Shown in pieces: positions 2,294-37,738 of a stretch of DNA of 64,000 bases (its first letter is position 1; every line of letters begins with the position of its first letter). The notes under the pieces are model-generated. The model saw only the letters and a program-made list of their open reading frames with translations, made no database searches and was not told the DNA's origin. Source of the stretch: Gemmatimonas phototrophica (lineage in GTDB: Bacteria > Gemmatimonadota > Gemmatimonadetes > Gemmatimonadales > Gemmatimonadaceae); assembly GCF_000695095.2 (NCBI RefSeq), contig NZ_CP011454.1, positions 1,426,001 through 1,490,000 of the forward strand. Direction: 5' to 3'. Made by a program: the position numbers and the translations under genes.

Positions 2294-3508
2294 TTAATTT
2301 GTGCCACGAGGGGAGGAGTCTGCTGACGCCTCCAGTTGCCGCGCCAGCGCCAACAGCCACTCGTCGCGACCCCGCGCCGCCACGAGTGACAATCCAATAG
2401 GGCAGCCATCGCGGGAGGCCAACGGTAGCGACAGCTGCGGCAGTCCGCCAAGGCCCGCTACACACAACAGCGCCAGCGCACGCTCACGGACCGCCACGGT
2501 CTCCTGTGGTGGCAGTTGCAGCAAGGGCGCAATGGCCGGAGCGGTCGGCATAAGCAGTACCGTATTGCCCGCCAGCAGCGCATCGAGTCGCGCGCGAATA
2601 CCTTCGCGCTGCGCAGATGCCCACGTCACTTCGCTCATGGTGGTCTTGGCCACCGCGGCAAATCGCGTGGCGACCTGCGGACCAAAGTGTGGTTGCACCC
2701 TCTGCACCCACTCGCGGTGCGTCTCCCAGATATCGTGGTACTGCAACACCCGGAACACATCAAACCACGCCGGCAGCCCCTTGTCTGACAGCACCACCGG
2801 TTCGGCGTCCCCCAGCAGCTGCGTGACCTGCTGCACCGCGGGCGCCAACGCCGCCGCCCCTTCCGGGGTGGCCTGGGCAAAGGCATCCGTGGCGAGCAAC
2901 ACGCGTACTGCGCCGCTCGACGCAACCACCGGTGACTGCAGCAACACTTCGCCCACCTGCGCTAGCAGCGCGGCATCGCGGGTGAACCAGCCGCAGGTGT
3001 CAAAGATGGGGGCCAGCGGGCAGGCGCCCGCCAGCGAGATGCGCCCATGTGTCGGGCGCAGGCCGTAAATGCCGCAGAAACTCGCCGGCGCGCGTACTGA
3101 TCCGCCGGTGTCGCTGCCAATGGCAAAGTCCACCAGACCACCGGCAACGGCTGCGGCTGACCCACTCGAGGAGCCACCCGGCACACGTCCTGTCGCCGCC
3201 GGATTGATCGGCGTGCCGTAGTGGGCGTTTTCGCCGGTCAGACTGAAGGCCATCTCCTCCGTGTGCGTCTTGCCCACCATGGAGGCTCCGGCCTGCAGCA
3301 GCTGCTCCAGCACCCAGGCGTGTCGCGGTGCCGCGTGGTGCGTACGCAGCCAATCCGGGCTGCCAAAGCCCGTATGATGCCCCGCAACGTCGAAAATATC
3401 CTTGAGGCCAAACGAAAGGCCGTCCAAAGGACCGCCTGAGGTACCACTCACACTCACATGGGTGTGACGGCAGAAGGCGTTCAGGCTGTCGTGGTCGAGG
3501 ATGCTCAT
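2294..3508 (-). CDS. Amidase-signature family amidase
   Basis: A 404-residue amidase of the Ser-cisSer-Lys class (GatA/AtzF-like fold), which hydrolyses amides to acid and ammonia. The catalytic lysine is in FGLKD (about residue 36), the cis-serine in GGSSSGSA (about 114) and the nucleophilic serine in DTGGSVRAP (about 137). The rest of the signature region is intact, so it should be active. There is no signal peptide, so it is probably cytoplasmic. It is shorter than GatA (about 480) and has no gatB/gatC partner nearby, which argues for a stand-alone amidase, not the tRNA amidotransferase subunit. The ATG at 3508 was chosen over an upstream in-frame start at 3562 because the family alignment begins close to it. 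Confidence 0.85.
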   Translation of the reverse strand: MSILDHDSLNAFCRHTHVSVSGTSGGPLDGLSFGLKDIFDVAGHHTGFGSPDWLRTHHAAPRHAWVLEQLLQAGASMVGKTHTEEMAFSLTGENAHYGTPINPAATGRVPGGSSSGSAAAVAGGLVDFAIGSDTGGSVRAPASFCGIYGLRPTHGRISLAGACPLAPIFDTCGWFTRDAALLAQVGEVLLQSPVVASSGAVRVLLATDAFAQATPEGAAALAPAVQQVTQLLGDAEPVVLSDKGLPAWFDVFRVLQYHDIWETHREWVQRVQPHFGPQVATRFAAVAKTTMSEVTWASAQREGIRARLDALLAGNTVLLMPTAPAIAPLLQLPPQETVAVRERALALLCVAGLGGLPQLSLPLASRDGCPIGLSLVAARGRDEWLLALARQLEASADSSPRGTN

Positions 3509-3581
3509 GTGCAGGCGAGGTAGGGGATCACCGAACATACCGAACCCGGAGCCTTGTCGCACACCGCACTATCTTTCCCGC

Positions 3582-4112
3582 ATGTCCCGGTTTTTTGCGT
3601 CTTTGCTGGCCATTGTTCTGCGCGGTGCCCCGCCTCGGAACAGCACGCGCGCTCCCGGTCGCGCGCGCCGATATCTGACGCGTGCCCTCGAAGGCGCCGC
3701 TGCGCGTGCTATTGAGGTAACGGTGCGCTCCCGCTCCGTGGCCCGCCGTCCGCGCTTTGCGTGGCCTGGCGAGATTACCATCGCCAGCGCGACGGAGCAG
3801 ATCATTGTGCCTGGCACGTGGGCGCTAGAGTGGCAGCCATCTGCGGGCACCGACCGTTCGGGCGCATCCATGGCCGTTGATGCGCCGTCGTTCCGTGATC
3901 ACGCCGCATGGGCACACTACATGCGGCGGCTCGTTACCCTGCAATTGCCGGGTACGCAGCTGCGGGTGCAACGCAACAACGCCAACGGGTGGGACACGCT
4001 GGAAGTGCGTGTGCCCACCCGTCCCACCACCGCTGTGGAGTTCGACCGCGACGCCCTGCAGCAACTGCTTGGTGATGCCAACGCCACGGTCACCCTGCGC
4101 GCCTTCGACTAA
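3582..4112 (+). CDS. Hypothetical protein, arginine-rich N-terminal half
   Basis: A 176-residue protein I do not recognise. The N-terminal 70 residues are rich in Arg and Ala (RARRYLTRALEGAAARA) and could be basic amphipathic helices. The C-terminal half alternates hydrophobic residues (VTLQLPGTQLRVQ, LEVRVP) as in a beta sandwich. It has no clear signal peptide, transmembrane helix or metal motif. It is divergent from the amidase (73-base gap) and convergent with the chemotaxis gene. The ATG at 3582 was taken as start because the upstream in-frame extension overlaps the amidase promoter region and start codon. Confidence 0.5.
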   Translation: MSRFFASLLAIVLRGAPPRNSTRAPGRARRYLTRALEGAAARAIEVTVRSRSVARRPRFAWPGEITIASATEQIIVPGTWALEWQPSAGTDRSGASMAVDAPSFRDHAAWAHYMRRLVTLQLPGTQLRVQRNNANGWDTLEVRVPTRPTTAVEFDRDALQQLLGDANATVTLRAFD

Positions 4113-4183
4113 CACCGAAGTCTACGCGTGTGCCCTCTCGTCCGCTCCACTCGAGTGGTGCTGGACAGACGGCCACCGCCGCA

Positions 4184-6166
4184 TCAGGCCGCGCGCGGCA
4201 GGGGCGTAGCCCAGCGCGGTTCGTCGAGCACAAACTGCGCCACCATATTCTGCAGCCGCTGCGCCTGACCGGCCAATTCCTGCGAACTGGCGGAGGTCTC
4301 TTCGGCGCTGGCCGCCACGCCTTGCGTGGTGGACTGCATCGAACCGATCGACGTATCTATCTCCCGAACGCTGGCCAACTGCGCCTGCGTGGCATCGGCC
4401 ACGTCCTTGAGCACCTTCGACACCCGATCGACGCGCTGATCGATCTCCTGCAGCTTGCCTGCGGCCGCCACGGCCAGTTGGGCACCGCTCGTGGTGTGCG
4501 CGAGCTGGGCTTCGATCAATGCCGACGTGTCCTTGGCGGCGCTGGCCGCCCGCATGGCGAGCGTTCGCACCTCGTCGGCCACCACGGCAAAGCCGCGTCC
4601 GGCGTCTCCCGCGCGCGCTGCTTCAACGGCGGCGTTCAGCGCGAGCAGATTGGTTTGGAAGGCAATCTCATCGATCGTGCGAATGATCCGCGCGGTATCG
4701 CTGCTGGCGGTCTTGATGCGCTCCACCGCGTCCCGCAGCCGATGCATCTCCGCCATCCCTTCGGTGGCGCTCTGCCGTGCTTCGTCAGCCAGTGCATTGG
4801 CGGTGGTCACATGCTGCGCGTTGCGGTCGGCTGTTCCACCAAGCTCCGTGACCGAGGCGCCAATCTGCTCAAGCCCTGCGGCCTGCGAACTCGCCCCCTG
4901 GGCAACACTCTCGCTCGCACTGGCAATCTCCGAACTCGCGGACGTGACTTCGGCGGACGCGTTGCGGGCTTCTGTCATGGTCCGATTCAGTGCGTCGGCC
5001 GCACGATTGAAGGCTTCCTTCACCTGTGCGTGATCACCGACATAGCCGCCCTTGACGCGGACCGTCAAATCGCCGTCAGCCAGGCGGGAGAGCACCTGCG
5101 CTGTTTCGGTCGCCGGCGCCGTGGTGGCATCGAGCGTGGCATTCACCCCTTCCAGCAGGGTGGCAAACGCCCCCTGGAAACGACTGGCGTTGGCGCGCGC
5201 GGTCAGATGACCAGACCGTGCTGATGCCGTGAGTTGATCGGCTTCCGCCAATAGCGTCCGAATGGATGACACGGAGGACGCGAAGGCCGCGGACGTGGCG
5301 GTGCAGGCGTCTACCATGCAGTCGAGCGTGTCCGCCAGCATGCCAATTTCATCGTGACGCGCCAGGCGTAACGGTGGCAAAGTGGCCACCGATGCTTCGG
5401 TCAGTTCGCCTTCCGCCATCCGGGTGCCGACTTCGGCCAGCGGGGCCAGCACCTGCGTCCGCACGGCTTCCGCCCGCGTGACGACTTGCTGAATGGTGCT
5501 GCCGATGGCGCGCACCCGCACGTAGCCTACCCCAAGAATGAGCACCCCGGCAATAACCAGGGTGAGTGACGACATGACGAAGGCGCGGGCGGATTCAGCT
5601 TCGATACCTTTCGATGCCGCCACCACTTGCAACTCAGCGATGGATAGGAGTTCGCCCACGAGTGTTTCGTAATGCTCCTGTGCCGGCGTGTACTCCCGGA
5701 AATAGAGCGCTGTCGCGGAATCACCAGACCCACTGGCCACCAGCTCCAGGATCGTGGTGCCGAGCGGTTGCAGGCTCGTGGAATCGGCGGCATTCAACTG
5801 CAAGAGCACATCATGCAGTGCGGCAGATTTCCCGAGGCTATCCAACTGCGCATACACCGCGCGGGTCGAATCGTAGGCCTCGACCCGCTGCATTGACTGA
5901 ACAGCAATCTGCTCGGAGTTCAACAGCATGGACTTCGTCGCCGCGTCCTCTTCGCGAAGGAACCCGAAGGCACGAAGCGCCAATTCCTTTACCTGGCGGG
6001 CTCGTAGGAGCTCACCCGTGAGTGCAGACTGCTGTTGCTTGGATCGGAAGGCCAGGCCAGTGCCCACCACGACCAGTGGAATGAGCAGGGCGGCAAAGAG
6101 TACGATGATACCAGACGCCAGCGTACGTGGACGCAGGCGCTGCCGGAATTGTGCCAAGGAGATCAT
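4184..6166 (-). CDS. Methyl-accepting chemotaxis protein
   Basis: A 660-residue transmembrane chemoreceptor. Transmembrane helix 1 is near residues 17-41 ([19 protein letters not shown]) and helix 2 near residues 195-218. They bracket a helical periplasmic sensor of about 150 residues like a four-helix bundle/CHASE3-type domain. A HAMP domain and further HAMP-like helices follow, then a long coiled coil with the hallmark signalling hairpin ([17 protein letters not shown] followed by [13 protein letters not shown]), which contacts CheA/CheW. No C-terminal CheR-binding pentapeptide is visible. The start at 6166 (MISLAQF) places TM1 correctly; the open frame extends further upstream into the cupredoxin gene. 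It is 29 bases downstream of the cupredoxin gene on the same strand, so the two may be cotranscribed. No che genes are in the window. Confidence 0.93.
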
Positions 6167-6195
6167 GGTCCCGCGGGTTAACGTGACGGGATCAA

Positions 6196-6510
6196 CTACT
6201 TGGTCACAGTGACTTTGACCTTCATGGCCGGATGAAAGGCGCACCGCACATCAAACGAGCCGGTCTTGGTAAACGCGACTTCGTGATTGGCGCCCGGCTT
6301 CATGGCCACCACGTTGAACGCGAACCCGGGGGCCGCGCTGAAGACGTTGTGGGTTACATCATCATCATTGTTGAAGACGAGCTTCTCGCCAACCTTGACC
6401 GTGACTTCGCTCTGGGAAAATTTCTTCCCCTTCTGGCCAACGACGACAGGGGCGAGGGGCGCGACGATGAGCGCAACCGCGAGCGGGGCAAACAAAAGAC
6501 GAGCAGACAT
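6196..6510 (-). CDS. Small cupredoxin (plastocyanin/amicyanin-like blue copper protein)
   Basis: A 104-residue exported protein with an N-terminal signal peptide ([21 protein letters not shown]). The mature part has plastocyanin-like strands and a type 1 copper site: His in DDVTHNVFS, then Cys, His and Met in the C-terminal loop CAFHPAMK. This spacing (Cys-x2-His-x2-Met) is that of short-loop cupredoxins such as amicyanin/pseudoazurin relatives. It should carry single electrons in the periplasm. It lies downstream of the PufC-like cytochrome gene on the same strand (235-base gap) and directly upstream of the chemoreceptor, so an electron-transfer partnership with the cytochrome is plausible but unproven. 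The start at 6510 is set by the signal peptide. Confidence 0.85.
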
Positions 6511-6745
6511 GAGAGAGTCTCTCCGGCAACGTCGGTCACGCAGGGAGGCGGCGAGTCCGACAACGATTCTACAGTGCTGGGCACGCAGGCCCACTGGAAA
6601 AACGGCGTCGTCTCTTCCAGTTCCTGTTATCGTCCTGTCCCGCTCCGGTCTTGAGTTCCGGATTACGCGCGTCGCGGTTGTTACAGACGAAACCGCATGC
6701 CCGGGTGTGAGTACAACGTTGCCGTTCGCCAGTCACACGACAGCG
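6511..6745 (-). other. Non-coding gap between cupredoxin and pufC-like genes
   Basis: This 235-base stretch has no credible gene. It contains one 7-bp stem (ACTGGAA at 6593-6599 pairing with 6615-6621, 15-base loop), which could end pufC transcription or sit in the cupredoxin leader. A cupredoxin promoter is expected here but no convincing -35/-10 pair was found. Confidence 0.4.
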
Positions 6746-7750
6746 CTACTGTCCTTCGGTCGGGATGACCATCGGGACAGGAAATGCCCGGCCGTTCCAG
6801 ACGGCACGTCCCCACAACGCCGGATACTCCACCGTGAGCTGGCGGCCGAACAGCGGCTTGTAGTTGCCATTGTGGCACGTGATGCACTGCGCTTTCGGTG
6901 CATCGCCCATGGCGCCGAGGCGATGGGCGGGCAGGACGGTGTTGAGGGGAGCGAGGTAGTTGGAATTGACGTCGCGGAGCATCTGAATGCCGGCGTATGC
7001 CACTACTCGCTGCGGCGGTGCCTCACGCCAACTGGCAAACTGCCGCGTATTATGGCAGTAGGTGCAGTTGACCCCCAGTGATCGTGACTGGGAAATCATG
7101 AGTGCGTAGGTCCACTCCGCCTGCTTCACCGAACTGCGGTTTGCCATGCCCGGTGCGACCGCCTGCGTCATGACCCGGGCGCCGTCACGATCGAGATAAT
7201 GCCGCAGATAATCGTTGGGGCTGTTGTAGAACCACAGGCCATTCGGCAGGGCCTTCCCCAGGTGGCAGGTGTAGCACGTGACGCCGGTGTTCTTCACGTG
7301 ACTGGCATAGGTGCCATTGATGGTGCGCACCATCTGCAGCATGCGTCGCGCTGTCAGCTTGCGGTACAGCGGCTCCCCGGTCGCCGTGGTATCCGACCAG
7401 GGCTGATCCACCCAATGGCAGAAGGCACAATTGCCTTGGGACCCACCAACCCACAGGGCCATGGCATCCATGGTTCTCAGGAGTTCAACGACGGAAACAT
7501 CGGTGAGCACCTGAACATTCTGCCACGGCAAGGGCCCGGCGGGCATCGGATCCGCCGGTGGAGCGGGCGCGGGTAACGTTGTCGCGACGGCGCGGTAGCG
7601 CTCCAGTGTTGCATCCCGACGATACACCTGCGTCATGGCCGTGCCGCGATACCCCACCTGCACGGTATCTACCCGCTGCTCACCAACACATGCGCTGAGC
7701 AAAACCGCGCTTGCCAACCACAGGCCGGGCCGATTTATCGGGAGCGCCAT
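6746..7750 (-). CDS. pufC: Tetraheme cytochrome, PufC-like photosynthetic reaction-centre cytochrome subunit
   Basis: A 334-residue lipoprotein (signal peptide ending LLSA-Cys21) with four c-type heme sites: CAFCH (108-112), CYTCH (159-163), CTYCH (229-233) and CITCH (289-293). Distal ligands match the Blastochloris viridis reaction-centre cytochrome by spacing: Met137, Met218 and His151 at the expected offsets from the heme 2, heme 3 and heme 2 histidines, and Met94 with a one-residue shift for heme 1. Flanking blocks (WTYALM, NTRQFASW, GDAPKAQC, YKPLFG) are also PufC-like, and length matches the family. The protein should pass electrons at the periplasmic face. No pufL, pufM, puhA or bch gene is in the window, so it is an orphan here, next to a cupredoxin. 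The start at 7750 is fixed by the lipoprotein signal. Confidence 0.88.
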   Translation of the reverse strand: MALPINRPGLWLASAVLLSACVGEQRVDTVQVGYRGTAMTQVYRRDATLERYRAVATTLPAPAPPADPMPAGPLPWQNVQVLTDVSVVELLRTMDAMALWVGGSQGNCAFCHWVDQPWSDTTATGEPLYRKLTARRMLQMVRTINGTYASHVKNTGVTCYTCHLGKALPNGLWFYNSPNDYLRHYLDRDGARVMTQAVAPGMANRSSVKQAEWTYALMISQSRSLGVNCTYCHNTRQFASWREAPPQRVVAYAGIQMLRDVNSNYLAPLNTVLPAHRLGAMGDAPKAQCITCHNGNYKPLFGRQLTVEYPALWGRAVWNGRAFPVPMVIPTEGQ

Positions 7751-7883
7751 AATACGTCCATCGTACGAGGAAGACATCCGCGCACTGCGGCGTCGCATTG
7801 CTGACTGGAACATGCATCGGCTTGCGCTCAGCCGCAAATATCCGTTGCTCGCACAGTTTCGACGGCACATGATCCCCACGCAA

Positions 7884-7917
7884 CAGAGCGCACCACGCGG
7901 TAGCGTGGTGCGCTCTG
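7884..7917 (-). terminator. Perfect 15-bp hairpin, likely terminator of the permease/hppA transcript
   Basis: Positions 7884-7898 (CAGAGCGCACCACGC) pair without mismatch with 7903-7917 around a GGTA loop. It lies 39 bases past the permease stop on the minus strand and before the pufC-like gene. There is no U-tract (TTGCGTGG follows on the minus strand), as with other hairpins in this window. Confidence 0.6.
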
Positions 7918-7955
7918 CGGTTACCTGACGTTCCCTTCATGCAGCAACACCCTGC

Positions 7956-9272
7956 TCAGCGAGCGGCGTTCCCGGAGACCTTGGTCGCCACTGCAAAAAA
8001 TGTGGACGCTACCACCAGTGTTGCGACAAGCACGATCCACTCGGCTTGAGTAATGCTTGTCAGCAGCCAGGCAATGAGTCCAATGGTAATGAATGGCACG
8101 AGCGGGCCACCCGGCACCGAGAAGGGGACGGCGCCGTCCTGCCGAATGCCGCGCTTGCGCAGCATAAAGGTGGCCGCGGCACATCCGGCATAGAGCAGCA
8201 GGGCCGCCAGATTGGAAATGACCGCCAGCTGCTCAAACGAATTGAAGACAGCCAGTGAGCCCACCAGGAAGGTTTGCAGCACAATGGCCACGTGCGGCGT
8301 GCGATACTCCGGATGCACCGAGCCTACCACCTTGGGCAGCAGGCCATCTTCGGCGAACCGGAACAGCGCGCGCGGCACCGCCAGCGTCATTCCGCTCACG
8401 TACCCGAACATCGAGATGGAGGCGCCAATCAGCAGCAGCAACCGGCCCGGCGTACCAAGGAATGATTCCGCGGCAAACGCGAGCGGCGCCGCGGTACTGG
8501 TGGCCAGCGAATCACCAAGCAGACCAGCCGCCACGAGATGCACAGCGAGATAGAGCAGTGTCACGCCAATCATGGCGATGGCGAGCGCCCGTGGCACCGT
8601 ACGCGCGGGGTCCCGTACTTCACCGCTGGGCACGAGTGCCGTTTCTACCCCGCTGAAGGCAAACACCAGTACAATGGCCGCACGCGCGAGGCTGGACGGC
8701 CCCGGCATCTCGGTGATCGCGAGATTCTCCGGCTGGATGAAGAACACGCCAATGGCTACGAAGGCAATGAGTGGCAGCAGCTTGGCGATGGAGGCCACCA
8801 CAATGAGCTTCGTGCCTTGTTCAACGCCGCGAATGTTCACGAGCGCCAACACAATGAACATGGCCACGATCACCGGCACGCGCAGCGACGGCATGTTGAA
8901 CAGCGCGCCCAATCCTTCGGCGAACGCACTCGACACACCCGCTACGGCGGTGGTACCAAGCATCCACAACAACACACCGGCGAGGAAGCCCACATAGCGG
9001 CCAAAGACCGCCTCCACGTAGGCGTATGGGCCACCGGTGAGCGTGATGCGACTGCCCGCTTCGGCGAAGCACAATACCACGAACCCCATGACGGCCGCGC
9101 AGATGAGATACACGAACGGCGCCGCGGGACCGGCCGCAGCGGCGGCTCCGGCAGGAAGGCGGAAGATGCCGCCACCCACGGTGACGTTGAAGATGCTGGC
9201 CGCGAGGGCCCAAACGCCAACCGCGCGGACCAGTTCTGGTCCGCGCGGTGACGTTGCTGTCGTTGAAGTCAC
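7956..9272 (-). CDS. APC-superfamily amino acid permease
   Basis: A 438-residue, 12-helix inner-membrane transporter. The first helix has the APC glycine-rich break (NVTVGGGIFRLP), and mid-protein the blocks FAFSGVETALVPSGEVRDPARTVPRA and GNAAR-ending tail are typical of the family. Substrate unknown. The start is a GTG at 9272, only three bases after the hppA stop, so it is likely translated from the hppA transcript. A close association with a proton-pumping pyrophosphatase may simply be transcriptional, or pump-generated proton motive force could drive this symporter. A strong hairpin follows the gene at 7884-7917. Confidence 0.87.
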   Translation of the reverse strand: MTSTTATSPRGPELVRAVGVWALAASIFNVTVGGGIFRLPAGAAAAAGPAAPFVYLICAAVMGFVVLCFAEAGSRITLTGGPYAYVEAVFGRYVGFLAGVLLWMLGTTAVAGVSSAFAEGLGALFNMPSLRVPVIVAMFIVLALVNIRGVEQGTKLIVVASIAKLLPLIAFVAIGVFFIQPENLAITEMPGPSSLARAAIVLVFAFSGVETALVPSGEVRDPARTVPRALAIAMIGVTLLYLAVHLVAAGLLGDSLATSTAAPLAFAAESFLGTPGRLLLLIGASISMFGYVSGMTLAVPRALFRFAEDGLLPKVVGSVHPEYRTPHVAIVLQTFLVGSLAVFNSFEQLAVISNLAALLLYAGCAAATFMLRKRGIRQDGAVPFSVPGGPLVPFITIGLIAWLLTSITQAEWIVLVATLVVASTFFAVATKVSGNAAR

Positions 9273-19666: not shown

Positions 19667-22237
19667 ATGGAGCCGCAACACGAAGCACAGGATGTCGGCG
19701 ACCTGGCCGACGAATACACGTTGCTCGGTGAACTGGGGCGCGGCGGCAATGCCATTGTGTACAAGGCCCGTGATCGTGCGCTCTTTCGCGACGTCGCCAT
19801 CAAGGTGGTCCGGCCGCGATTCGCCGCCACCGCCGACGAAGCGATTGCGCGTCTCGAACGCGAGGCCCGAACGGTTGCACGGCTGCAGCATCCCAACATC
19901 GTCACCGTGTATGCCGTCAAGCGTCTCAACGACGGCGGCCTGGCGCTGGTCATGCAACTGGTGCCCGGGCGTACCCTCAAGCAGGCCATACAGGATGATG
20001 GCCCCTTTGAGCCGGAGCGGGCGGAACGGGTCATCAAGGACATTGCGGAAGCGCTGGCATTCGCTCACGCCAATGGCGTGGTCCACCGGGATGTGAAGCC
20101 GGAGAATGTCTTCATGGACTCGGTGAGTGGCCGCGCCCTCCTCAGCGACTTCGGCATCGCCCACAACAACGAGTTCGATTCGCGTCTCACCATGACGGGA
20201 TCGGCAATCGGGACGCCTGCGTACATGGCGCCGGAGCAGATTGACGGTGCGCCCGCCAACGCGCGCTCCGATCTGTACAGCCTCGGACTGGTGGCGTGGG
20301 AGATGCTTTCGGGCGAACGGCCGTGGGCCGGTGATGCGCTGTACAACGTGATCTACAAGCAGAAGCACGAAGAGTTGCCGGCGATTGACTCCCTGCGTCC
20401 CGGTGCGGTCCCCGCCCGTCTGCAATACATCGTCGAACGGATGCTGCAAAAGCGCCCCGGTGCCCGATGGGCCGGCGCCGACGGGTTGCTGGCCGCGCTG
20501 AACGCCTGGGTTGTCCCCAGCGATTGGAAGCAGTGGGAAGAGTCGCACAAGCGGCGCCGCGACCGGGAAAAAGCTGCGCCCAAAATGCCGGTGAGGCGCG
20601 GTGACGCCAGCGAGGACGCGACGGTGCGATTTGCCCGTCCCACGTCCGGCGTGTCGCCCGCCGTCGTTCCCGAAGCGGACGTGGCGCTGCTCAAGGTGCC
20701 CACCGCGCCGTCGGTGCCCGTGGTGGATGACGACGCCGCGCCTTCGTGGGCCACGGACGCCGACGCCTCTTCAACTGGCCGTCGGTCCCGCTGGGTAGCC
20801 GTGGTCGCTCTGCTGGGGATCACCCTCGCCGGAGCCGCCTATGCCATGTACATGCGGCAGATGGGGCCCTTTGCGACGGTGTCGGGCAATGCGCTGGCCA
20901 TGACCGACGCCGCGACCGTGGAACTGCCGATTGTCAGTGATACCGCGCAGAGCGCGCCGTCGGTGCCAGTACCCACGTCGATGCCGACCGATAGCGGTGT
21001 CGCCGCTGCCGCTGCCGCCGATTCACAAGTGGTGGCCCAACGTCGGATCGACTCGCTTCGCGTTGACTCACTGGTTGCGGTGGCCCGCCGGGCAGAGCGT
21101 CGCGCGGCGCGGGCGGCCATTGGCGTTGCTCCACCAGCCGAAGCACGAGTGGCGGTTGCCGCGCCCACGGTGCGCGCCACCGACGACCCCGGAATCATCG
21201 CGGCAGGGGGGCGTCATTCGTGTGCGCTGGTGTCCTCCCGCGTTTTGTGTTGGGGGGCCAACGACCGCGGGCAGTTGGGTGACGGTGACGCCGAAGCGCG
21301 GAGCACCCCCGCGCCGATTGTGGGCGACCTCGAGTTTGTGCAGGTCACCACGGGACTTTCGCACAGTTGTGGCGTGGCCCGTGGGGGTGATGCGTATTGC
21401 TGGGGCGCCGATGATCGCGGGCAACTTGGCGACGCCACGTTTACCTCACGGTCCGCACCGGTCCGCGTGGCTGGCAACCAGACCTTTCGGTTGCTGCGGG
21501 CGGGGCAATACCACACGTGCGGGCTGACGACCGCCGGCGACGTGCTCTGCTGGGGCGCCAATGCCAACGGCCAACTCGGCGACGGGGGTACCAGCAATCG
21601 CTCGTCGCCGGTGTCGGTTGGCGGTGGGCTGCGCTTCGTGTCGTTGTCAGCTGGATGGAATCACAGCTGCGCCATTGCCTACGACGGGAAGGCGTATTGC
21701 TGGGGGGCCAACGCCAGCGGACAGCTGGGCAACGGCACCCGGACCGATACCCGCACGCCAACGGCGGTGAGCGCAGAGCAACGCTTTACCAGTATGGCGG
21801 CTGGTGCCACCCACACGTGTGCCACCGCCGATGGTGGAGAGACGTTCTGCTGGGGACGGAACAGCTACGGGCAATTGGGCACCGGTGGGACCGGCGATCA
21901 GGCCGTGCCAGCGCCCGTGTTCGGTGGTACGCGTTTCGCATCAGTGACCGTGGGCGGTGTGCATTCCTGCGGGCGCACACGCAGTGGCCAGGTCTTCTGC
22001 TGGGGGCGCAACGTGTACGGACAATTAGGGGACGGCACCAACGCCACGCGCGATGTCCCAACGCGGGTGGCGGGGAGTACGACATTCTCAGCGGTGCATG
22101 CCAGTGGTGCGCATACCTGTGCCACCGGCGGTGAAGACACGCTGTGGTGCTGGGGATTCAATGTGGAGGGGCAGTTGGGTGACGGCACGCGCAATCACCT
22201 GTCGCGCCCCACCCGTGTCGTGATGCCGGCCCGGTGA
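19667..22237 (+). CDS. Transmembrane Ser/Thr protein kinase with seven-repeat RCC1 beta-propeller
   Basis: An 856-residue receptor kinase. The N-terminal PknB-type kinase has GRGGNAIVYK, Lys46, HRDVKPEN (Asp142), DFG (161-163) and APE (188-190), so it should be active. A charged linker leads to one transmembrane helix (about 376-395), placing the rest outside the cytoplasm: an Ala/Ser-rich stalk, then seven RCC1 repeats of about 50 residues (508-856), enough for a complete seven-bladed propeller. Every repeat has a Cys in the H-[ST]-C motif and a second Cys in CWG about 9 residues later, so each blade could hold one disulfide. It likely senses an envelope or extracellular ligand and signals to the FHA protein encoded upstream. 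Its stop overlaps the next start. Confidence 0.92.
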   Translation: MEPQHEAQDVGDLADEYTLLGELGRGGNAIVYKARDRALFRDVAIKVVRPRFAATADEAIARLEREARTVARLQHPNIVTVYAVKRLNDGGLALVMQLVPGRTLKQAIQDDGPFEPERAERVIKDIAEALAFAHANGVVHRDVKPENVFMDSVSGRALLSDFGIAHNNEFDSRLTMTGSAIGTPAYMAPEQIDGAPANARSDLYSLGLVAWEMLSGERPWAGDALYNVIYKQKHEELPAIDSLRPGAVPARLQYIVERMLQKRPGARWAGADGLLAALNAWVVPSDWKQWEESHKRRRDREKAAPKMPVRRGDASEDATVRFARPTSGVSPAVVPEADVALLKVPTAPSVPVVDDDAAPSWATDADASSTGRRSRWVAVVALLGITLAGAAYAMYMRQMGPFATVSGNALAMTDAATVELPIVSDTAQSAPSVPVPTSMPTDSGVAAAAAADSQVVAQRRIDSLRVDSLVAVARRAERRAARAAIGVAPPAEARVAVAAPTVRATDDPGIIAAGGRHSCALVSSRVLCWGANDRGQLGDGDAEARSTPAPIVGDLEFVQVTTGLSHSCGVARGGDAYCWGADDRGQLGDATFTSRSAPVRVAGNQTFRLLRAGQYHTCGLTTAGDVLCWGANANGQLGDGGTSNRSSPVSVGGGLRFVSLSAGWNHSCAIAYDGKAYCWGANASGQLGNGTRTDTRTPTAVSAEQRFTSMAAGATHTCATADGGETFCWGRNSYGQLGTGGTGDQAVPAPVFGGTRFASVTVGGVHSCGRTRSGQVFCWGRNVYGQLGDGTNATRDVPTRVAGSTTFSAVHASGAHTCATGGEDTLWCWGFNVEGQLGDGTRNHLSRPTRVVMPAR

Positions 22238-25200
22238 TGCGCCGTGTTGCCACGCGCCTCCGGCGTGGGCTGGTGTACGTTGCCGCGCTATGGGCGACAA
22301 CCGCCTGCGCGGGGCTCTCGGAGATCACGGAGCCCAAGCCGCTCCTTGAACCAGTGGGATCGGTGAGTGTGACGCCGACGACGGCATCTGTCGTGGAAGG
22401 CAATACGACGGTGCTGCAGGCGCAGGTGTTTGACGAATTGGGAGGGGCGCTGACCGGACGCCCCTTGTTCTGGTCGAGTAGTGACAGTACGGTCGCTCGT
22501 GTGGCGCCCAACGGCGAAGTCACTGCACTGCGTGTCGGCAACGCGCAGGTGGCGGTGACGGCCGACGGGAAGAGTGCCGTTGCCGCGATCACCGTCTCCC
22601 GACGGGCCGTGGCGAGTGTACAGCTGTCGCCGCCAAGTCCCACGCTGTTTGTGAATGGGACCTTGTTGTTGCAGGCCAGACCGCTGGATGATCGCGGACA
22701 GCCGCTGAGCGACCGCTCCATATCGTGGCAAAGCAGTGACCCACGCATTGCCATTGTCGATCTCGCCGGGGTGGTGACTGGCCTCGCCCCCGGGACGGCG
22801 ACCATTACCGCCACCAGCGAACTGCGATCGGCAACGATCGGGGTGACCGTGGTGCCGGTCCCTACCGCGTCGGTGCAAGTCACACCCGGTCGAGACACGG
22901 TCATTGTCGGACAGTCCACGCAGCTCAGTGCCGTGGCACGTGATTCAGCGGGCAATGCGCTGGCTGAACGAAGTATTGGCTGGAGTACCAATGCCGGCAC
23001 CATTGCGACCGTGTCATCCACAGGACTGGTGCTGGGAGTGGCCCCAGGGACGGTGATCGTCACGGCGTCGAATGGTGGGCGGAGCGGTACGGCCGTGCTT
23101 GATGTCCTGCCGCGTCCCGTTGGAGCGGTCATCGTGTCGCCGTCGCAATCCGTTCTCACGGTGGGCCAGACACTCCGGCTCACTGTCCAGGTGACCGACC
23201 AAAACGGAACGCTGCTTCTTGGCAGACCGGTTGTATACGAGAGCAGTAACCCTACGGTTGCGCGAGTGGCGGCTGACGGCACCGTGTCTGCTGCGGCGGC
23301 TGGTACGGCTGTCATAACCGCCGTGAGTGAGGGGCGAACAGGTACAGCCTCGGTGTCCGTGTCGCCGTCGCCGGTGGCCCTAGTGCGTGTCTCACCGGCC
23401 AGCGTGAACGTGCTGGCCGGTACCACGACTCGACTGACCGCTGATGCGCTGGATGCGTCAGGGGCCGTGCTGGCGCAACGGGCCGTGACGTGGCTGAGCG
23501 GAGCGCCCGCTTTCTTTTCTGTGCGGGCCGATGGCACGGTGACGGCGCTGAGTCCGGGCGCCGGCGTGGTGTTTGCGTCGGCCGAAGGGCGCATCGGAAC
23601 GGCCGCAGTGGTGGTGCGCGGTGTGGCCGTCAATGCGGTGGTGCTTTCCCCGGCCGCTCCCGCGCTGTTTGTGGGCGATCTCCGCGACTTCACCGTAGCC
23701 GTACGTGATGTCAATGGCGCCGAGATCAGTGGGCGTGTGGTACAATGGGCCACGAGTGATCCAACCGTCGCGGTGGTGTCGAGTACTGGACGCGTGCGCG
23801 CGGTGGCACCAGGGACCGCCGTCATCAGCGCCACCGTTGACGGCGTTGCCGGGACGACCTCCGTCGTCGTGAGCGCGCTGCCGGTCGCCACGGTCAGCGT
23901 GGCGCTCACCGCCTCGACCCTGTTGCCGGGGCAGACGACTACCGCCACCGTCGTGGTGCGCAGTGCAGGCGGTGACGTCTTGACCGGACGCGCGGTGACG
24001 TGGACGAGTCTGACGCCGGCGGTGGCAACCGTTTCCGCCACCGGTACGGTCTCCGCCGTGGCGAATGGCACTGCGGTGATTCGGGCGACGGTCGAGGGGG
24101 TGAGTGGGCAGGCCACACTTACCGTAAGCCCAACGCCTGTGGCGTCGGTCTCAGTATCGCTGGCAGCCAGCAGTCTTTTTGTCGGTCAGACCACGCAAGC
24201 GACGGCCGTCACGCGCAGTGCGGCCAACGAGGTGCTGAGCGGTCGCGCGACTGCGTGGAGCAGTTCGAATGCAGCGGTGGCGACGGTATCCGCGGCTGGC
24301 GTGGTGACCGCGCTGTTGCCAGGGAGCGCCACCATTACCGCGACGAGTGAAGGGCAAAGTGGCACCGTCGTGGTGACGGTCTCGCTGGTGCCGGTAAACA
24401 GCGTGACGGTGGCGTTGGCCGCCAGCACGATAACGGTGGGGAGCAGTACCCAGGCGACGGCCACCTTGCGCGACACGTCCAACGCCACACTGACCGGTCG
24501 TGTGGTGGCGTGGAGCAGCAGCAACAGCAGTGTGGCTACGGTCAGTGGCGGCGGCGTCGTGTCGGCGGTGGCTCCCGGAACGGCCAGTATCACGGCGACC
24601 AGTGAGGGAAAGAGCAATGCGGCCACGGTGACCGTCACGCTGGTGCCGGTGGACTCGGTGGAGGCGCGCCTGGCTGACTCCACCGTCACCGTAGGTAGCA
24701 CGGTGCAAGGCACGGCCGTGCTCCGGGCGCTGGGCGGAGCCGTGCTCTCGGGTCGCCCCGTCACATGGGTGAGCAGCAACACGGCGGTCGCCACGGTGAA
24801 CAGCAGCGGGTTGGTGTCTGCAGTGAGCCCCGGCTCCACCACCATTACGGCCACCAGTGAGGGGAAGAGTGATGCGGTGACATTGCTGGTGGCCGCCGTC
24901 CCGGTGGCGTCGGTCACGGTGACGCTCAATCCCGGCAGCATTCAGGTGGGGGCGACCTCCACCGGCAGCGCGGTGACACGCGACGCCAGCAACAACGTGC
25001 TGACAGGGCGCACGGTCACGTGGGCGAGCAGCAACACCGGCGTCGCCACGGTGAACAGCAGCGGTGTCGTGACCGGCGTCAGCGCCGGCACGGCGACCAT
25101 TACGGCAACGAGTGAAGGGATCAACGGTACCGCGGATATCACCGTGACCGCGGTCCCCGTCGCCAGCGTGAATGTCACGCTCAATCCCACCAGCATCCAG

Positions 25201-25371
25201 GTGGGGGCGACCTCCTCCGGCAGCGCAGTCACACGCGACGCCAGCAACAACGTGCTCACGGGGCGCACCGTCACCTGGGCCAGCAGCAACACCGGCGTCG
25301 CCACGGTGAACAGCAGTGGTGAAGTGACGGGCGTGAAGCGCCGGCACGGCCACCATTACCGCGACGAGTGA
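22237..25371 (+). CDS. BIG2 Ig-like repeat surface protein, 5' part of a frameshifted gene
   Basis: This open frame encodes an N-terminal signal (lipoprotein-like, ending near TTACAG) followed by Ig-like group 2 (BIG2) repeats, each exactly 85 residues (255 bp), starting at 22351. Repeats 1-11 and most of repeat 12 are here. In repeat 12 one extra A at 25336 shifts the frame, so this reading ends in an unrelated 11-residue tail at 25371. The same repeats continue one frame over to 26092. The intact protein would be about 1,285 residues with 14 repeats. BIG2 domains usually form rod-like adhesins or spacers on the cell surface. The ATG at 22237 overlaps the kinase stop (TGATG), so it is translationally coupled. 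Confidence 0.8.
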   Translation: MRRVATRLRRGLVYVAALWATTACAGLSEITEPKPLLEPVGSVSVTPTTASVVEGNTTVLQAQVFDELGGALTGRPLFWSSSDSTVARVAPNGEVTALRVGNAQVAVTADGKSAVAAITVSRRAVASVQLSPPSPTLFVNGTLLLQARPLDDRGQPLSDRSISWQSSDPRIAIVDLAGVVTGLAPGTATITATSELRSATIGVTVVPVPTASVQVTPGRDTVIVGQSTQLSAVARDSAGNALAERSIGWSTNAGTIATVSSTGLVLGVAPGTVIVTASNGGRSGTAVLDVLPRPVGAVIVSPSQSVLTVGQTLRLTVQVTDQNGTLLLGRPVVYESSNPTVARVAADGTVSAAAAGTAVITAVSEGRTGTASVSVSPSPVALVRVSPASVNVLAGTTTRLTADALDASGAVLAQRAVTWLSGAPAFFSVRADGTVTALSPGAGVVFASAEGRIGTAAVVVRGVAVNAVVLSPAAPALFVGDLRDFTVAVRDVNGAEISGRVVQWATSDPTVAVVSSTGRVRAVAPGTAVISATVDGVAGTTSVVVSALPVATVSVALTASTLLPGQTTTATVVVRSAGGDVLTGRAVTWTSLTPAVATVSATGTVSAVANGTAVIRATVEGVSGQATLTVSPTPVASVSVSLAASSLFVGQTTQATAVTRSAANEVLSGRATAWSSSNAAVATVSAAGVVTALLPGSATITATSEGQSGTVVVTVSLVPVNSVTVALAASTITVGSSTQATATLRDTSNATLTGRVVAWSSSNSSVATVSGGGVVSAVAPGTASITATSEGKSNAATVTVTLVPVDSVEARLADSTVTVGSTVQGTAVLRALGGAVLSGRPVTWVSSNTAVATVNSSGLVSAVSPGSTTITATSEGKSDAVTLLVAAVPVASVTVTLNPGSIQVGATSTGSAVTRDASNNVLTGRTVTWASSNTGVATVNSSGVVTGVSAGTATITATSEGINGTADITVTAVPVASVNVTLNPTSIQVGATSSGSAVTRDASNNVLTGRTVTWASSNTGVATVNSSGEVTGVKRRHGHHYRDE

Positions 25372-25921
25372 AACGATCGACGGCACTGCCGACATAACCG
25401 TGACCGCCATTCCGGTGGACTCGGTCGAGGCCACGCTCGCCGACTCCACGATCGCGGTTGGACAAACCGTACAAGCGGCGGCCATCACGCGCGCCGCCGG
25501 CGGCGCCGTGCTCACCGGCCGCACCATCACCTGGGTCAGCAGCAACACCAGCGTGGCCACGGTCAACAGCAGCGGTCTCGTCACCGCACTCGACGTCGGC
25601 ACAGTGACCATCACTGCGACGAGCGAAGGAAAGAGCGATGAGGTCACGCTGGCGGTTGCTGCAGCCGTTGGCGCCTCTGTGGCGGTCACACTGAATCCCC
25701 CCACGATTCAAGTGGGCGAGACTTCCATGGGCACCGCAATCACCCGTGACGCAGGCAACAGTATGCCCAGCGGGCGCGCGGTGAAGTGGCGCAGCGACGA
25801 TACGGCCGTGGCTACCGTGTCCAATAGCGGCACCGTAACAGGCGTAGGTAGTGGCAGCGCTACCATCACCGCAAGCAGCCAGGGCGTGGATGGCCGTGCC
25901 GATATCACGGTCACGGCCACG
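24901..25921 (+). repeat. Near-identical 255-bp tandem repeats within the BIG2 gene
   Basis: Four 255-bp units begin at 24901, 25156, 25412 (after the extra base) and 25667. Units at 24901 and 25156 are almost the same at DNA level (long shared blocks such as GACGCCAGCAACAACGTGCT). The unit at 25412 resembles the one at 24646 instead (both PVDSVEA...LADST), and the 25667 unit resembles 24901. The pattern suggests block duplication within the array, creating sequence that could recombine. Confidence 0.75.
25336..25336 (+). other. Single-base insertion causing a +1 frameshift
   Basis: At the start of codon 61 of repeat 12 the sequence reads GTGAAGCGCCGG. The sister repeat (25079-25089) reads GTCAGCGCCGG, coding V-S-A-G. 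Removing one A restores the 85-residue phase with the downstream frame exactly. There is no homopolymer longer than two and no slippery heptamer, so a sequencing/assembly error or a real inactivating mutation is likelier than programmed frameshifting. Confidence 0.8.
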
Positions 25922-26092
25922 TCAGTCGAAGTACTCGAGGTTGCGTACTCCGAACTCCGGATTCCAGTGGGGCCGTCCGGGGTGAGTCGCGCGGTCACTC
26001 AACGCGAAGACGCAGCGAGTCGAGAGGGTCGCCTTGATGCTCTGACTCCCATGTCGGTAGCGGTCCCACCCGGTGCGGTGAATCATCCATGA
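25400..26092 (+). pseudogene. 3' remainder of the frameshifted BIG2 protein gene
   Basis: This frame continues the repeat array after the insertion at 25336: the end of repeat 12, repeats 13 (25412) and 14 (25667), and a unique 57-residue tail rich in Arg, Ser and Pro, ending at 26092. It has no ribosome-binding site or signal peptide of its own. As a separate protein it would be an incomplete Ig domain array, so it is best seen as the C-terminal part of the gene at 22237. Its stop overlaps the next gene's start (ATGA at 26089), which supports a once-continuous, coupled operon. Confidence 0.75.
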
Positions 26093-27732
26093 CCATGCAC
26101 CGCGCCATACGCCGTCACTACGGGGCCCTGTTCCGGGCCATTGCGACGGTGGCACTCCTCGTCGTGAGCCTGGCCCAATGCGGTGATAACACCGCAGTCA
26201 CCGTGGACGTGGCCACGCTCGAGGTGACACCGGCAACCGCCATCGTACAAGGAGGAGGCACTCTCACCCTGGGAGTGCGTGCGCGTGACGCCAGCGGCTC
26301 TCCCATTGCCGCCCCGGTGCTCCGCTGGTCCACCAGCGACAACACCATCGCAACGGTGTCTGCGGCGGGTGTGATTACGGCGGCTGCGCCGGGTACGGCC
26401 CGCATTGCCGTTTCGAGCATGGGAAAGAGTGCCATCGCCACGATCATTGTGGCACCGCGTCCGGTGGCGTCACTGCTGATCACGCCGTCCCAGACGTCGG
26501 TACTGGTCTCCCGCACAACACAACTGTCGGCTCAAACGCTCGATGCCACCGGCACACTGCTGACTGGGCGGACGATCACCTGGTCCAGCAGTGATGTCAC
26601 CGTGGCACGCGTGGATGGCGCTGGCATCGTGACGGGTGTGGCGCCGGGCGCCGCCACCATTATTGCCACGAGCGAAGGGCGCTCGGCACAGTCGGCCGTC
26701 ACGGTGACGTTGCCGCCGGTCCAGTCAATCACGATCTCGCCGACGCGCGACACACTCGCCGTAACGGGCGGACGGCAATTCACCGCTGTCGTACGCAGTG
26801 CCGAGGGCACGGTACTCACCGGGCGGACCATTGCCTGGAGTTCCACCAACGTGGCGGTTGCGATTGTCTCCGCCACCGGAGCCGTTACGGCACTGACGCC
26901 AGGGACCGCAACCATCACCGCTACCAGCGAAGGGCGCAGCGCTTCGGCCACGCTGGTCGTGTTGGCGCGCCTGGCCAGTGCTGTCATCGTGACGCCCGGA
27001 GTTGCGTCGTTGATTGCCGGCACGACCCTCGCGCTGGCAACGCAAATCACCGACGATGCGGGCAATGTGCTGTCGGGACGACCGGTCACCTTCAGTAGTG
27101 AAGCGCCGGCCGTGGCCAGCGTTTCCACCGCTGGCGTGGTGACAGCGCTGACGCCGGGCACGACACGAATCGTGGTTTCAAGTGAAGGCAAGACAGGATT
27201 CTCCACGATTCAAGTGGTGCCGGTCCCAGTAGCCACACTGGAGCTGACTCCCACTACGGCGGCGCTCCTGATTGGCGAAACAGTGCCACTGGCCGCGACG
27301 ACGCGTAGTCTGACGGGTGCCGTTCTCACGGGGCGCATCATTGAGTGGCGTACGGGCGCTCCCAATGTGGCGACCGTGTCGTCGTCCGGTGCCGTGACGG
27401 CCATCGCACCAGGAACGGCCATCATTCTGGCCACTGTAGAAGGCGTCAGCGCCACGGCGAGCATCAGCGTGCGGCAACCACCCGTCACGTCCGTCGTGAT
27501 AACGCCTCCCACGGGGGACATCACGGTTGGCCAACAGCTTCAGCTGACGGCAACACCCCGAGGCACTGGGGGGACGATTCTCACGAATCGGGTCATCACG
27601 TGGAGCTCGTCCAATGAACAGGTGGCATTTGTGAGCAGCACCGGCCTTGCAGTTGGTGTGCGTGCAGGAACCGCGATCCTTACAGCTACTTCCGAGGGCG
27701 TCAGTGCCTCCATCACCATTACGGTACGCTGA
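26089..27732 (+). CDS. BIG2 Ig-like six-repeat lipoprotein
   Basis: A 547-residue exported protein. A signal peptide with lipobox VVSLAQC is followed by six BIG2 repeats, the first starting at 26206 and each 85 residues except the last (83, ending at the C-terminus). Each has the family core: a strand with V-x-P, a hydrophobic-Gly turn, W-S-S-S, VATV and PGTATI. The fold is a rigid Ig rod, often an adhesin or stalk. It overlaps the previous stop by four bases (ATGA), and the TPR gene begins one base after its stop. It clearly shares ancestry with the 14-repeat protein next door and uses the same unit length. Confidence 0.88.
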   Translation: MTMHRAIRRHYGALFRAIATVALLVVSLAQCGDNTAVTVDVATLEVTPATAIVQGGGTLTLGVRARDASGSPIAAPVLRWSTSDNTIATVSAAGVITAAAPGTARIAVSSMGKSAIATIIVAPRPVASLLITPSQTSVLVSRTTQLSAQTLDATGTLLTGRTITWSSSDVTVARVDGAGIVTGVAPGAATIIATSEGRSAQSAVTVTLPPVQSITISPTRDTLAVTGGRQFTAVVRSAEGTVLTGRTIAWSSTNVAVAIVSATGAVTALTPGTATITATSEGRSASATLVVLARLASAVIVTPGVASLIAGTTLALATQITDDAGNVLSGRPVTFSSEAPAVASVSTAGVVTALTPGTTRIVVSSEGKTGFSTIQVVPVPVATLELTPTTAALLIGETVPLAATTRSLTGAVLTGRIIEWRTGAPNVATVSSSGAVTAIAPGTAIILATVEGVSATASISVRQPPVTSVVITPPTGDITVGQQLQLTATPRGTGGTILTNRVITWSSSNEQVAFVSSTGLAVGVRAGTAILTATSEGVSASITITVR

Positions 27733-29728: not shown

Positions 29729-30700
29729 ATGGACCAGACCATGCCCGTCCCCGCCGAGGATCCGGCCCTCCTGGCCGCCTTCGAAGCCCGTATCGCCGCT
29801 GGCGAAAGCATCGAGCCGAAGGACTGGATGCCGGAACGATATCGCAAGCAACTCACCCGGATGATGTCGCAGCATGCGCACTCCGAGATCGTGGGGATGC
29901 TCCCTGAAGGCAACTGGATAACGCGGGCGCCCAGCCTGCGTCGAAAGCTGTCACTCATTGCCAAGGTGCAGGATGAAGCCGGTCACGGCTTGTACATCTA
30001 CTGCGGCACCGAGACACTCGGGGTGGATCGCCACGAGTTGGTGGAGCAGTTGCTGGACGGCCGCGCCAAGTACTCCAGCATTTTCAATTACCCTACGCTG
30101 GCTTGGGCCGACATGGGCGTGATTGGCTGGCTGGTAGACGGCGCGGCCATTGTGAACCAGACGGTGCTGGCCAAAGCCAGCTACGGGCCCTACGCGCGGG
30201 CCATGGTTCGCATCTGCAAGGAAGAAAACTTCCACAAGCGCCAGGGTTACGAAATCTGTACGGTGCTGGCCAATGGCACGCCGGCGCAGAAGGCCATGCT
30301 GCAGGACTCCGTGAACCGCTTCTGGTGGCCGGCGCTCATGATGTTCGGCCCCAGCGACACGAATTCGCCAAACAGTGCGGAGCTGCTGCGCTGGCGTGTG
30401 AAGCGCAAAACGAACGATGAGCTGCGTCAGCGCTTTGTGAATCTCACGGTGCCGCAGGCCATTGCGCTGGGGCTCACCATTCCCGATCCCGATCTGCATT
30501 TCAACGAAGCGACCGGCGACTGGGAGTTTGGTGAGATCGACTGGTCGGAGTTCTACGAAGTGGTCAAGGGGAACGGCCCGTGCAATCAGGAACGCATGGA
30601 GACTCGCCGTGCGGCGCATGAAAACGGGGAATGGGTGCGGGCGGCAGCCACGGCGCACGCCGAGAAGCAGCGCGCCCGTCGTGACACGGCGGCCGCATGA
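29729..30700 (+). CDS. paaA: Phenylacetyl-CoA 1,2-epoxidase, catalytic subunit PaaA
   Basis: A 323-residue ferritin-like di-iron oxygenase subunit that epoxidises the ring of phenylacetyl-CoA. Carboxylate and histidine ligands for iron lie in helices such as [24 protein letters not shown] and the [12 protein letters not shown] region. The length matches the family. It is the first gene of a four-gene block, overlapping paaB by four bases (ATGA). No strong Shine-Dalgarno sequence precedes ATG 29729. PaaA works in a complex with PaaB and PaaC, with PaaE as reductase; paaE is not in this window. Confidence 0.96.
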
Positions 30701-30993
30701 GCACGAACGACGACAGCCAGTGGCCACTCTGGGAAGTGTTTACACAGGGAGCGCGTGGCGAACCCTTTGAGCATGCCGGCAGTATTCATGCGGCCGATGC
30801 GGAGTTGGCGCTGCAGAACGCCCGCGACGTGTACACCCGTCGCGGTGAAGCGGTGAACTTATGGGTGGTGCCCAGCAATGCGATTGTGGCATCGGCGCCC
30901 TCTGATGCCGGGCCGTTCTTCGATCCCGGGAACGACAAGCCTTATCGTCATCCGCAGTTCTACGTCGCGCCGCGCGGCGTGCGCATTTTCTGA
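30697..30993 (+). CDS. paaB: Phenylacetyl-CoA epoxidase subunit PaaB
   Basis: A 98-residue small subunit of the epoxidase, bridging PaaA-PaaC assemblies. The family blocks [37 protein letters not shown] and VVPSNAI are all present, and the length is standard. It starts at ATG 30697 overlapping the paaA stop, which implies coupled translation. Confidence 0.96.
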
Positions 30994-31001
30994 GGCGCCC
31001 G

Positions 31002-31850
31002 GTGGCTCAAGACGAAGACCGCACGACAATTGGCGGCAAATCGGGGGTGGTGAACAAGGCGCCCGACTATCCCATTGCGGCGCCCCGCCACACGGCCGTG
31101 GCGAACCCGCTGGCCGAGTATCTGCAGCGGCTGGGCGACGATCGACTGGTGCTGGGGCACCGACTGTCGGAGTGGTGTGGCCACGCTCCCATCCTCGAGG
31201 AAGACATCGCCCTGTCGAACATGGCGCTTGACCTCATTGGGCATGCGACCAGCATTCTCGCGCTGGCAGGGGCCGTAGAAGGGCAGGGACGCGACGAAGA
31301 CGCCCTCGCGTTCTTTCGCGACGGCACTGCCTTCCGCAACGCCTTGCTGGTGGAGCAGCCGAACGGCGATTTCGCCGTGACACTGGTGCGCCAGTTCCTG
31401 TTTGATGCCTACAGTGTCCTGCTGTGGGATCAGCTGTCGCACTGTGGCCATGAGGGATTGGCCGCCATTGCCGCCAAGTCGCTCAAGGAAGACAAGTATC
31501 ACCTGCGCCACAGCAGTGAATGGGTCGTACGGTTGGGCGACGGGACGGATGAAAGTCACGCCCGCACGCAGCGTGCCCTCGACACGCTGTGGAAATACAC
31601 CGCAGAGTTGTTCGAACGCGATGCCGTGGACGATGCCGTGGCCGCCATGGGCATTGCCGTGGATACGGCCGCACTGCGCTCCTTGTGGGATGGTCTCGTG
31701 AACGATGTGCTGCAGCGCGCCACGCTCACGCGTCCGCCGGAGACGGGGCCCCGTCGTGGTGGTCGCACAGGAAGACATTCGGAGCATCTGGGGCATATGT
31801 TGGCCACAATGCAGAGCGTGGCCCGCGCGCATCCCGGCGCACGCTGGTAG
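31002..31850 (+). CDS. paaC: Phenylacetyl-CoA epoxidase structural subunit PaaC
   Basis: A 282-residue ferritin-like subunit that stabilises PaaA. It has RLGDDRLVLGHRLSEWCGHAPILEEDIALSNMALDLIGHA, and SSEWVVRLGDGTDESH further on. It carries a longer N-terminal extension than usual (about 35 residues before the conserved NPLAEYLQ). The apparent start is a GTG at 31002, eight bases after paaB; a later start would lose only non-conserved sequence. It is followed 7 bases later by paaD. Confidence 0.94.
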   Translation: MAQDEDRTTIGGKSGVVNKAPDYPIAAPRHTAVANPLAEYLQRLGDDRLVLGHRLSEWCGHAPILEEDIALSNMALDLIGHATSILALAGAVEGQGRDEDALAFFRDGTAFRNALLVEQPNGDFAVTLVRQFLFDAYSVLLWDQLSHCGHEGLAAIAAKSLKEDKYHLRHSSEWVVRLGDGTDESHARTQRALDTLWKYTAELFERDAVDDAVAAMGIAVDTAALRSLWDGLVNDVLQRATLTRPPETGPRRGGRTGRHSEHLGHMLATMQSVARAHPGARW

Positions 31851-31857
31851 CCCAGGC

Positions 31858-32346
31858 ATGCTGACGCGTGACGAGGTCTTCGGGGTTCTGCAGACAGTGC
31901 CGGATCCCGAGGTCCCGGTGATCAGTGTGGTGGAGTTGGGCGTTGTGCGTGACGTCGAAATTACCGGCCGGCACATTACGGTGACCATGACGCCGACCTA
32001 TTCCGGCTGTCCTGCCATGCGGGAGATGGAGGCCGACGTGAAGGCCGCGCTGTTGTCGCGCGGCGCCGACTCCGTGGAAGTGCGCATGGTACTCACGCCC
32101 GCCTGGACAACCGATTGGATTGGCCCCGATGCGCGCGAAAAGCTCCGGCGCTACGGCATTGCACCGCCGGGTAAGGCAGACACGGGTGGATTTGTCACGC
32201 TGACGCGTGCCCGTCCGGCAGTGCCTTGTCCGTTCTGCGGCTCCGCGGAAACGCGCCTGCAGAGTGAATTCGGGTCCACGGCATGCAAGGCCATTCATAC
32301 CTGTTCGGCCTGCGGGTCGCCCTTCGACGAATTCAAGGCGCACTGA
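31858..32346 (+). CDS. paaD: Phenylacetyl-CoA epoxidase maturation protein PaaD (SufT/MIP18-like)
   Basis: A 162-residue protein with an N-terminal MIP18/SufT domain (VPDPEVPVISVVELGVVRDV and the cysteine-bearing TYSGCPAM) and a C-terminal zinc ribbon (CPFCGS...CSACGSPFDEF). PaaD is needed for epoxidase activity, probably for Fe-S insertion into PaaE. Its retention here suggests that a PaaE-type reductase exists elsewhere in the genome. It ends the first paa block, and a 23-bp hairpin follows 13 bases after the stop. Confidence 0.95.
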   Translation: MLTRDEVFGVLQTVPDPEVPVISVVELGVVRDVEITGRHITVTMTPTYSGCPAMREMEADVKAALLSRGADSVEVRMVLTPAWTTDWIGPDAREKLRRYGIAPPGKADTGGFVTLTRARPAVPCPFCGSAETRLQSEFGSTACKAIHTCSACGSPFDEFKAH

Positions 32347-32359
32347 CCTGAGGCCTTGG

Positions 32360-32409: not shown

Positions 32410-32466
32410 GTGCACCGGGTGCCGTGGCGCTCAGACGATCGAGCGCCACCACACCACTGGAGTGCC

Positions 32467-36486: not shown

Positions 36487-36492
36487 AGCCTA

Positions 36493-37733: not shown

Positions 37734-37738
37734 CCGTC

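Follow-up and report, generated by a model that had tools for sequence, protein, structure and literature searches.

Reaction-centre cytochromes are usually encoded by a single gene in the puf operon, an arrangement that is not itself defining for the protein. In PufC, heme 1 takes electrons from soluble donors, along a path that is lined by five residues in Thermochromatium tepidum (PMC7889895), and heme 3 hands electrons to the special pair (PMC10715153). Additional reaction-centre genes have been described in Citromicrobium sp. JL354, where an incomplete second cluster, pufLMC-puhCBA, lies on an integrating element and pufC is missing from the main cluster (PMC3338782). The closest described protein to the one considered here is the operon PufC of Gemmatimonas phototrophica (chain C of 7o0u and 7o0v), which is encoded beside pufLM and is present in the solved complex. 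In the window, by which we mean the whole 64,000-nucleotide stretch that was analysed (C1:1426001-1490000 of a single-contig, 4.717-Mb genome), we found a second gene of this type, pufC2, which lies ~150 kb from pufLM. Its product resembles the operon protein in family, fold, four hemes, sixth ligands and lipobox. The gene (C1:1432749-1433750 in genome coordinates) and its heme sites are as follows.

6746-7750, minus strand: pufC2, gene for a second tetraheme cytochrome of the PufC type; 334 aa from the ATG (translation, PF02276, NF040706, model and PDB match)
7415-7429, minus strand: heme 1 site, C108-A-F-C-H112, carrying Y110F and followed by W113
7262-7276, minus strand: heme 2 site, C159-Y-T-C-H163
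7052-7066, minus strand: heme 3 site, C229-T-Y-C-H233
6872-6886, minus strand: heme 4 site, C289-I-T-C-H293

All sequence and fold tests that were run identify the product of 6746-7750 as a genuine PufC. It scores 302 bits against Pfam PF02276 (cut-off 22.4) and 301.9 bits against the NCBIfam PufC equivalog NF040706 (cut-off 150). The model for the Chloroflexus cytochrome c-554 Puf2C, NF043009, gives 53.5 bits, far below its cut-off of 800, and the 87 bits obtained with NF033196 (cut-off 70), a model for a c-type cytochrome of non-phototrophs, are matched by canonical PufCs, which likewise pass (85-87 bits). The N-terminus has a signal peptide with the lipobox LLSAC21, followed by the segment VQVGYRGTAM, which is missing from the diheme relatives of non-phototrophs that were inspected. 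PufC2 is predicted to be exported, lipid-anchored at Cys21 and loaded with four c-type hemes.

An earlier, sequence-only reading of this DNA had placed the four CxxCH motifs at PufC-like positions and had named Met137, His151 and Met218 as sixth ligands. Both assignments hold: the motifs begin at C108, C159, C229 and C289, and the ligands M94, M137, M218 and H151 all fall in columns that are invariant in an alignment of 85 PufCs. That reading was also correct in finding Met94 offset by one, since the M94-H112 distance is 18, as against the usual 17 seen for M93-H110 in the operon PufC of the same genome; the other offsets are 26 (M137-H163) and 15 (M218-H233). The shift comes from a single additional residue (S104/Q105) in the loop that precedes heme 1, and because the length of this loop varies in other PufCs, the extra residue is unremarkable. 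Among the 52 residues invariant across the compared PufCs, PufC2 keeps 51, the sole exception being Y110F; W113 is N in every Gemmatimonadaceae PufC compared. The region CAFCHWVDQPWSDTT is an example of peptide sequence found in PufC2 only.

The AlphaFold model used was built from 85 sequences (pLDDT 82), a model from 33 sequences (pLDDT 51) having been set aside. Its significant matches in the PDB are reaction-centre cytochromes only, the closest being 7o0v_C (Z 31.8) and 7o0u_C (Z 31.7; VIA-align, rmsd 2.8 over 294-295 residues). Foldseek gives E 4e-35 against 7o0u_C, and the model also superposes on 1prc_C with Z 27.7. The heme ligands align in the model, so the misalignment that had been raised as a possible objection did not appear.

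The gene had been described as an orphan, either a paralogue in a strain with a photosynthesis cluster elsewhere or a PufC with a respiratory job in a non-phototroph. Locally the description stands: pufC2 is not inside a puf operon, its neighbours being a permease gene and a gene for a methyl-accepting chemotaxis protein (MCP), and none of pufLM, puh or bch was noticed among the window ORFs scanned. Genome-wide it is wrong. The search for pufLM that had been proposed, run with PF00124 over the whole genome, located pufL and pufM at C1:1585157-1586812, and a whole-genome search with PF02276 found another pufC directly adjoining them at C1:1583982-1584917. This operon PufC contains the aligned residues of the G. 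phototrophica chain 7o0u_C letter for letter and, counted from its second Met, has 354 residues, the exact length of that chain; PufC2 is 69% identical to it over residues 14-329. By this match the genome is almost certainly that of G. phototrophica AP64, or of something nearly identical. With PufLM and a PufC matching 7o0u_C in the same genome, the window gene is a paralogue in a phototroph. The idea that PufC2 is the sole PufC of a non-phototroph, which the scanned window ORFs by themselves would support, fails because the host is a phototroph, with pufL, pufM and another pufC on the same 4.717-Mb contig; we give it practically no chance. The PF02276 search also returned a third match, at C1:4319150-4319599, a diheme lipoprotein of ~200 aa of the non-phototroph type.

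To place the second copy within the genus, we surveyed 30 Gemmatimonas genomes, 23 of which have PF00124 (PufL/M) matches. The phototrophic members have one PufC each (the copies in G146 and G433 are truncated or fragmented), and two full copies were present in this genome only, 1 of the 30. Several genus genomes without pufLM have at most diheme PF02276 proteins of ~200 aa and no tetraheme PufC. Two other cases were observed in passing. G146 has an intact pufLM, and its pufC frame, on contig C301, ends after ~155 residues, by a frameshift or a real loss. A genome from another family of the same class, G395, has two PufC matches on contigs C38 and C235, which could be a second two-PufC case or a mixed MAG.

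The gene lies in a short strain-specific block with the following elements.

3501-4112, plus strand: small conserved flanking gene, family not assigned (synteny)
4113-7955, no strand: strain-specific block of ~3.9 kb holding the MCP gene and pufC2 (tblastn synteny, blastn break points)
4184-6244, minus strand: methyl-accepting chemotaxis protein (HAMP and MCPsignal), in the pufC2 block
7884-7917, no strand: perfect 15-bp inverted repeat 3' of the permease gene, probable transcription end
7956-9272, minus strand: amino-acid permease, a conserved gene flanking the block, with 82-94% identity across 11 other Gemmatimonas genomes

In G436, G439 and G098, the genes around the block come in the same order as here (perm0, amidase, the small gene at 3501-4112, permease, H+-pyrophosphatase, peptidase), and the identity of the flanks reaches 94-99%. 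These three genomes have ~0.2-0.8 kb between the small gene and the permease, and both the MCP gene and pufC2 are missing from that interval; in G433, where the amidase adjoins the permease, the two genes are again absent. Since they are missing between the same neighbours in four relatives, the block is specific to this genome within the set. No convincing direct repeats were found at its borders. A broken or recently moved puf operon, one of the two circumstances that the sequence-only reading had named as refuting it, can be ruled out because the insertion consists of pufC2 and the MCP gene alone, with no other gene of the operon nearby. Judging from the inverted repeat at 7884-7917, pufC2 probably has its own promoter; a promoter scan found no site. 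The MCP itself has no orthologue in the genus, the best match being 42% to its N-terminal part, in another genus. Elsewhere in the window, a protein kinase fused to RCC1 repeats is followed by two proteins of many Big_2 Ig-like domains (19667-27732), and phenylacetate-type genes (PaaA/PaaC, thiolase, an aldehyde dehydrogenase-MaoC fusion) are interspersed with unrelated genes (29729-43537).

PufC2 is under purifying selection. Compared with the operon copy, dN is 0.304 and dS, which is near saturation, is 1.294, giving dN/dS of ~0.24, and the differences by codon position number 86/82/167. The frame has no stops. When random change was simulated at half the observed number of differences, 0.7% of the trials kept an open frame, and about one of the four CxxCH motifs survived. 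This pattern indicates that selection has acted on PufC2 through most of its history, and with the intact frame and dN/dS of ~0.24, a pseudogene is unlikely; silencing of the gene could have occurred very recently. These results bear on the possibility that PufC2 is a spare copy, out of use or silenced not long ago, that was gained or duplicated together with the chemoreceptor and is heading to loss. Its presence in 1 of 30 genus genomes, its long branch and its GC3 of 0.754, against 0.844 in the operon pufC, would all fit such a fate, which we nevertheless consider unlikely, given the intact frame, the low dN/dS and the retention of all hemes and ligands and of 51 of 52 invariant residues over that long branch.

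The origin of the second copy is less clear-cut. In the tree, PufC2 stands on its long branch at the base of the genus clade, a placement that can be due to long-branch attraction, and a recent duplication with the operon PufC is not rejected by the AU test (p 0.33-0.34). Two of the four residues specific to the AP64 and G098 clade are common to PufC2. At shared residues, codon identity is 0.50 between PufC2 and the genus PufCs and 0.62 among the latter; together with the GC3 difference, this would favour an old or foreign origin, and relaxed codon use could explain the codon identity. The likely clade of origin is the Gemmatimonas PufCs. No closer relative of PufC2 was found among genome contigs (best 70%), plasmids (<60%) or viral contigs (40%). 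The last figure refers to the end of an IMG/VR 'viral' contig (L225:4-729) that codes for the last two thirds of a PufC and is possibly a mislabelled bacterial contig.

To see where PufC2 has changed, we took as reference the 196 residues that are invariant in 17 genus PufCs. PufC2 changes 25 of them, comparable to the 23-25 changed in three sister-lineage PufCs. The changes in PufC2 are placed differently, above all in the following segment.

7397-7468, minus strand: heme-1 segment, residues 95-118, some of which correspond to the T. tepidum donor-docking site

This segment is altered at 7 of its 17 genus-invariant residues in PufC2, as against 0-2 in the three equally diverged sister-lineage PufCs and at most 3 in any outgroup. 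By contrast, the reaction-centre-proximal heme-3 segment (residues 204-245) is conserved, with none of its 29 genus-invariant residues changed (1-7 in the three sister-lineage PufCs). The clustering at heme 1 gives a Fisher p of 0.002, which is post hoc because the region was picked after looking, and a scan permutation p of 0.05. At the five T. tepidum donor-contact positions, PufC2 has W76, L91, D95, A98 and P117 where the operon PufC has W75, N90, I94, S97 and F115. Four of the five therefore differ in kind (N90 to L91, I94 to D95, S97 to A98, F115 to P117), with one charge gained and one aromatic lost. This mapping is an analogy: the genome has no PF01355 match that would point to a HiPIP, so the organism's own donor may differ and the docking map from T. 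tepidum may fit it inexactly.

A changed donor surface could also mean that PufC2 has left the reaction centre altogether, and hence has been released from the puf operon, and that it now acts by itself in the periplasm as a membrane-anchored tetraheme electron carrier, say for respiration or for storing electrons. The position of the gene, away from all photosynthesis genes and adjoining a chemoreceptor gene, is consistent with this, as is the loss of the C-terminal tail of ~30 residues found in the genus PufCs. A protein freed from the reaction centre should, however, first lose the constraint on its heme-3 and N-terminal parts, and in PufC2 the heme-3 segment has changed less than any other part and the N-terminal PufC motif is still there. 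In addition, genus genomes without pufLM keep at most the small diheme PF02276 proteins. On balance we regard a free carrier as rather unlikely.

The explanation that we favour, with a probability of about one half, is that PufC2 serves as an alternative cytochrome subunit of the reaction centre, one whose electron entry has been re-tuned. Conservation of its N-terminus and heme-3 end speaks for a protein that can still serve the reaction centre, and the rebuilding of its heme-1 end for a different entry of electrons. PufC2 would bind to the PufLM reaction centre that also takes the operon PufC and would re-reduce the special pair via its unchanged heme-3 end. In view of the rebuilt heme-1 end, we propose that it takes electrons from a different donor, or with a different affinity or potential. 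One point against this reading is that the published G. phototrophica complex contains the operon PufC; we infer that the second copy would be expressed, and would act, under conditions unlike those of the published isolation. As a more specific and tentative suggestion, which we think possible though doubtful, the strain may switch its electron-entry module, with PufC2 replacing the operon copy under some conditions and using a different periplasmic donor via the rebuilt heme-1 docking site.

Extra reaction-centre gene sets are already known, whereas we found no report, in the open literature searched, of a solitary second pufC whose donor end is rebuilt. Nor is a second pufC mentioned in the searched portions of papers on the gene regulation and structure of G. 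phototrophica. The significance of the gene is that a second PufC, kept by selection in an organism with a solved reaction-centre complex, offers a clean experiment of nature on what determines how electrons enter a reaction centre, and on whether the donor-side subunit can be exchanged in phototrophs. The view of 6746-7750 as a PufC in a non-phototroph is corrected as well.

Among known systems, the operon PufC of the same genome differs from PufC2 in lacking the extra residue before heme 1, in its heme-1 segment, which is rebuilt in PufC2, and in having an Ala/Pro/Thr-rich C-terminal tail. The PufCs of Gem. groenlandica TET16 (9h19 chain C) and other Gemmatimonas are 64-70% identical to PufC2 and share its architecture; unlike the host of PufC2, those genomes have a single PufC each. 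The more distant PufCs of Blastochloris viridis (1prc) and T. tepidum (1eys, 5y5s), at ~41% identity, show the same Met/Met/Met/His pattern and the same fold (Z 27.7-29.2), while the T. tepidum protein differs in character from PufC2 at 4 of the 5 donor-contact positions. The diheme PF02276 cytochromes of Gemmatimonas, for example the protein at C1:4319150-4319599, match the first half of PF02276, which makes the family link to PufC2, but they have two hemes and no N-terminal PufC motif, where PufC2 has four hemes and the motif. Citromicrobium JL354 is like the host of PufC2 in having extra reaction-centre genes, including pufC, outside the main cluster; there, however, a whole pufLMC set is present, whereas PufC2 is encoded by a lone pufC that duplicates an existing one.
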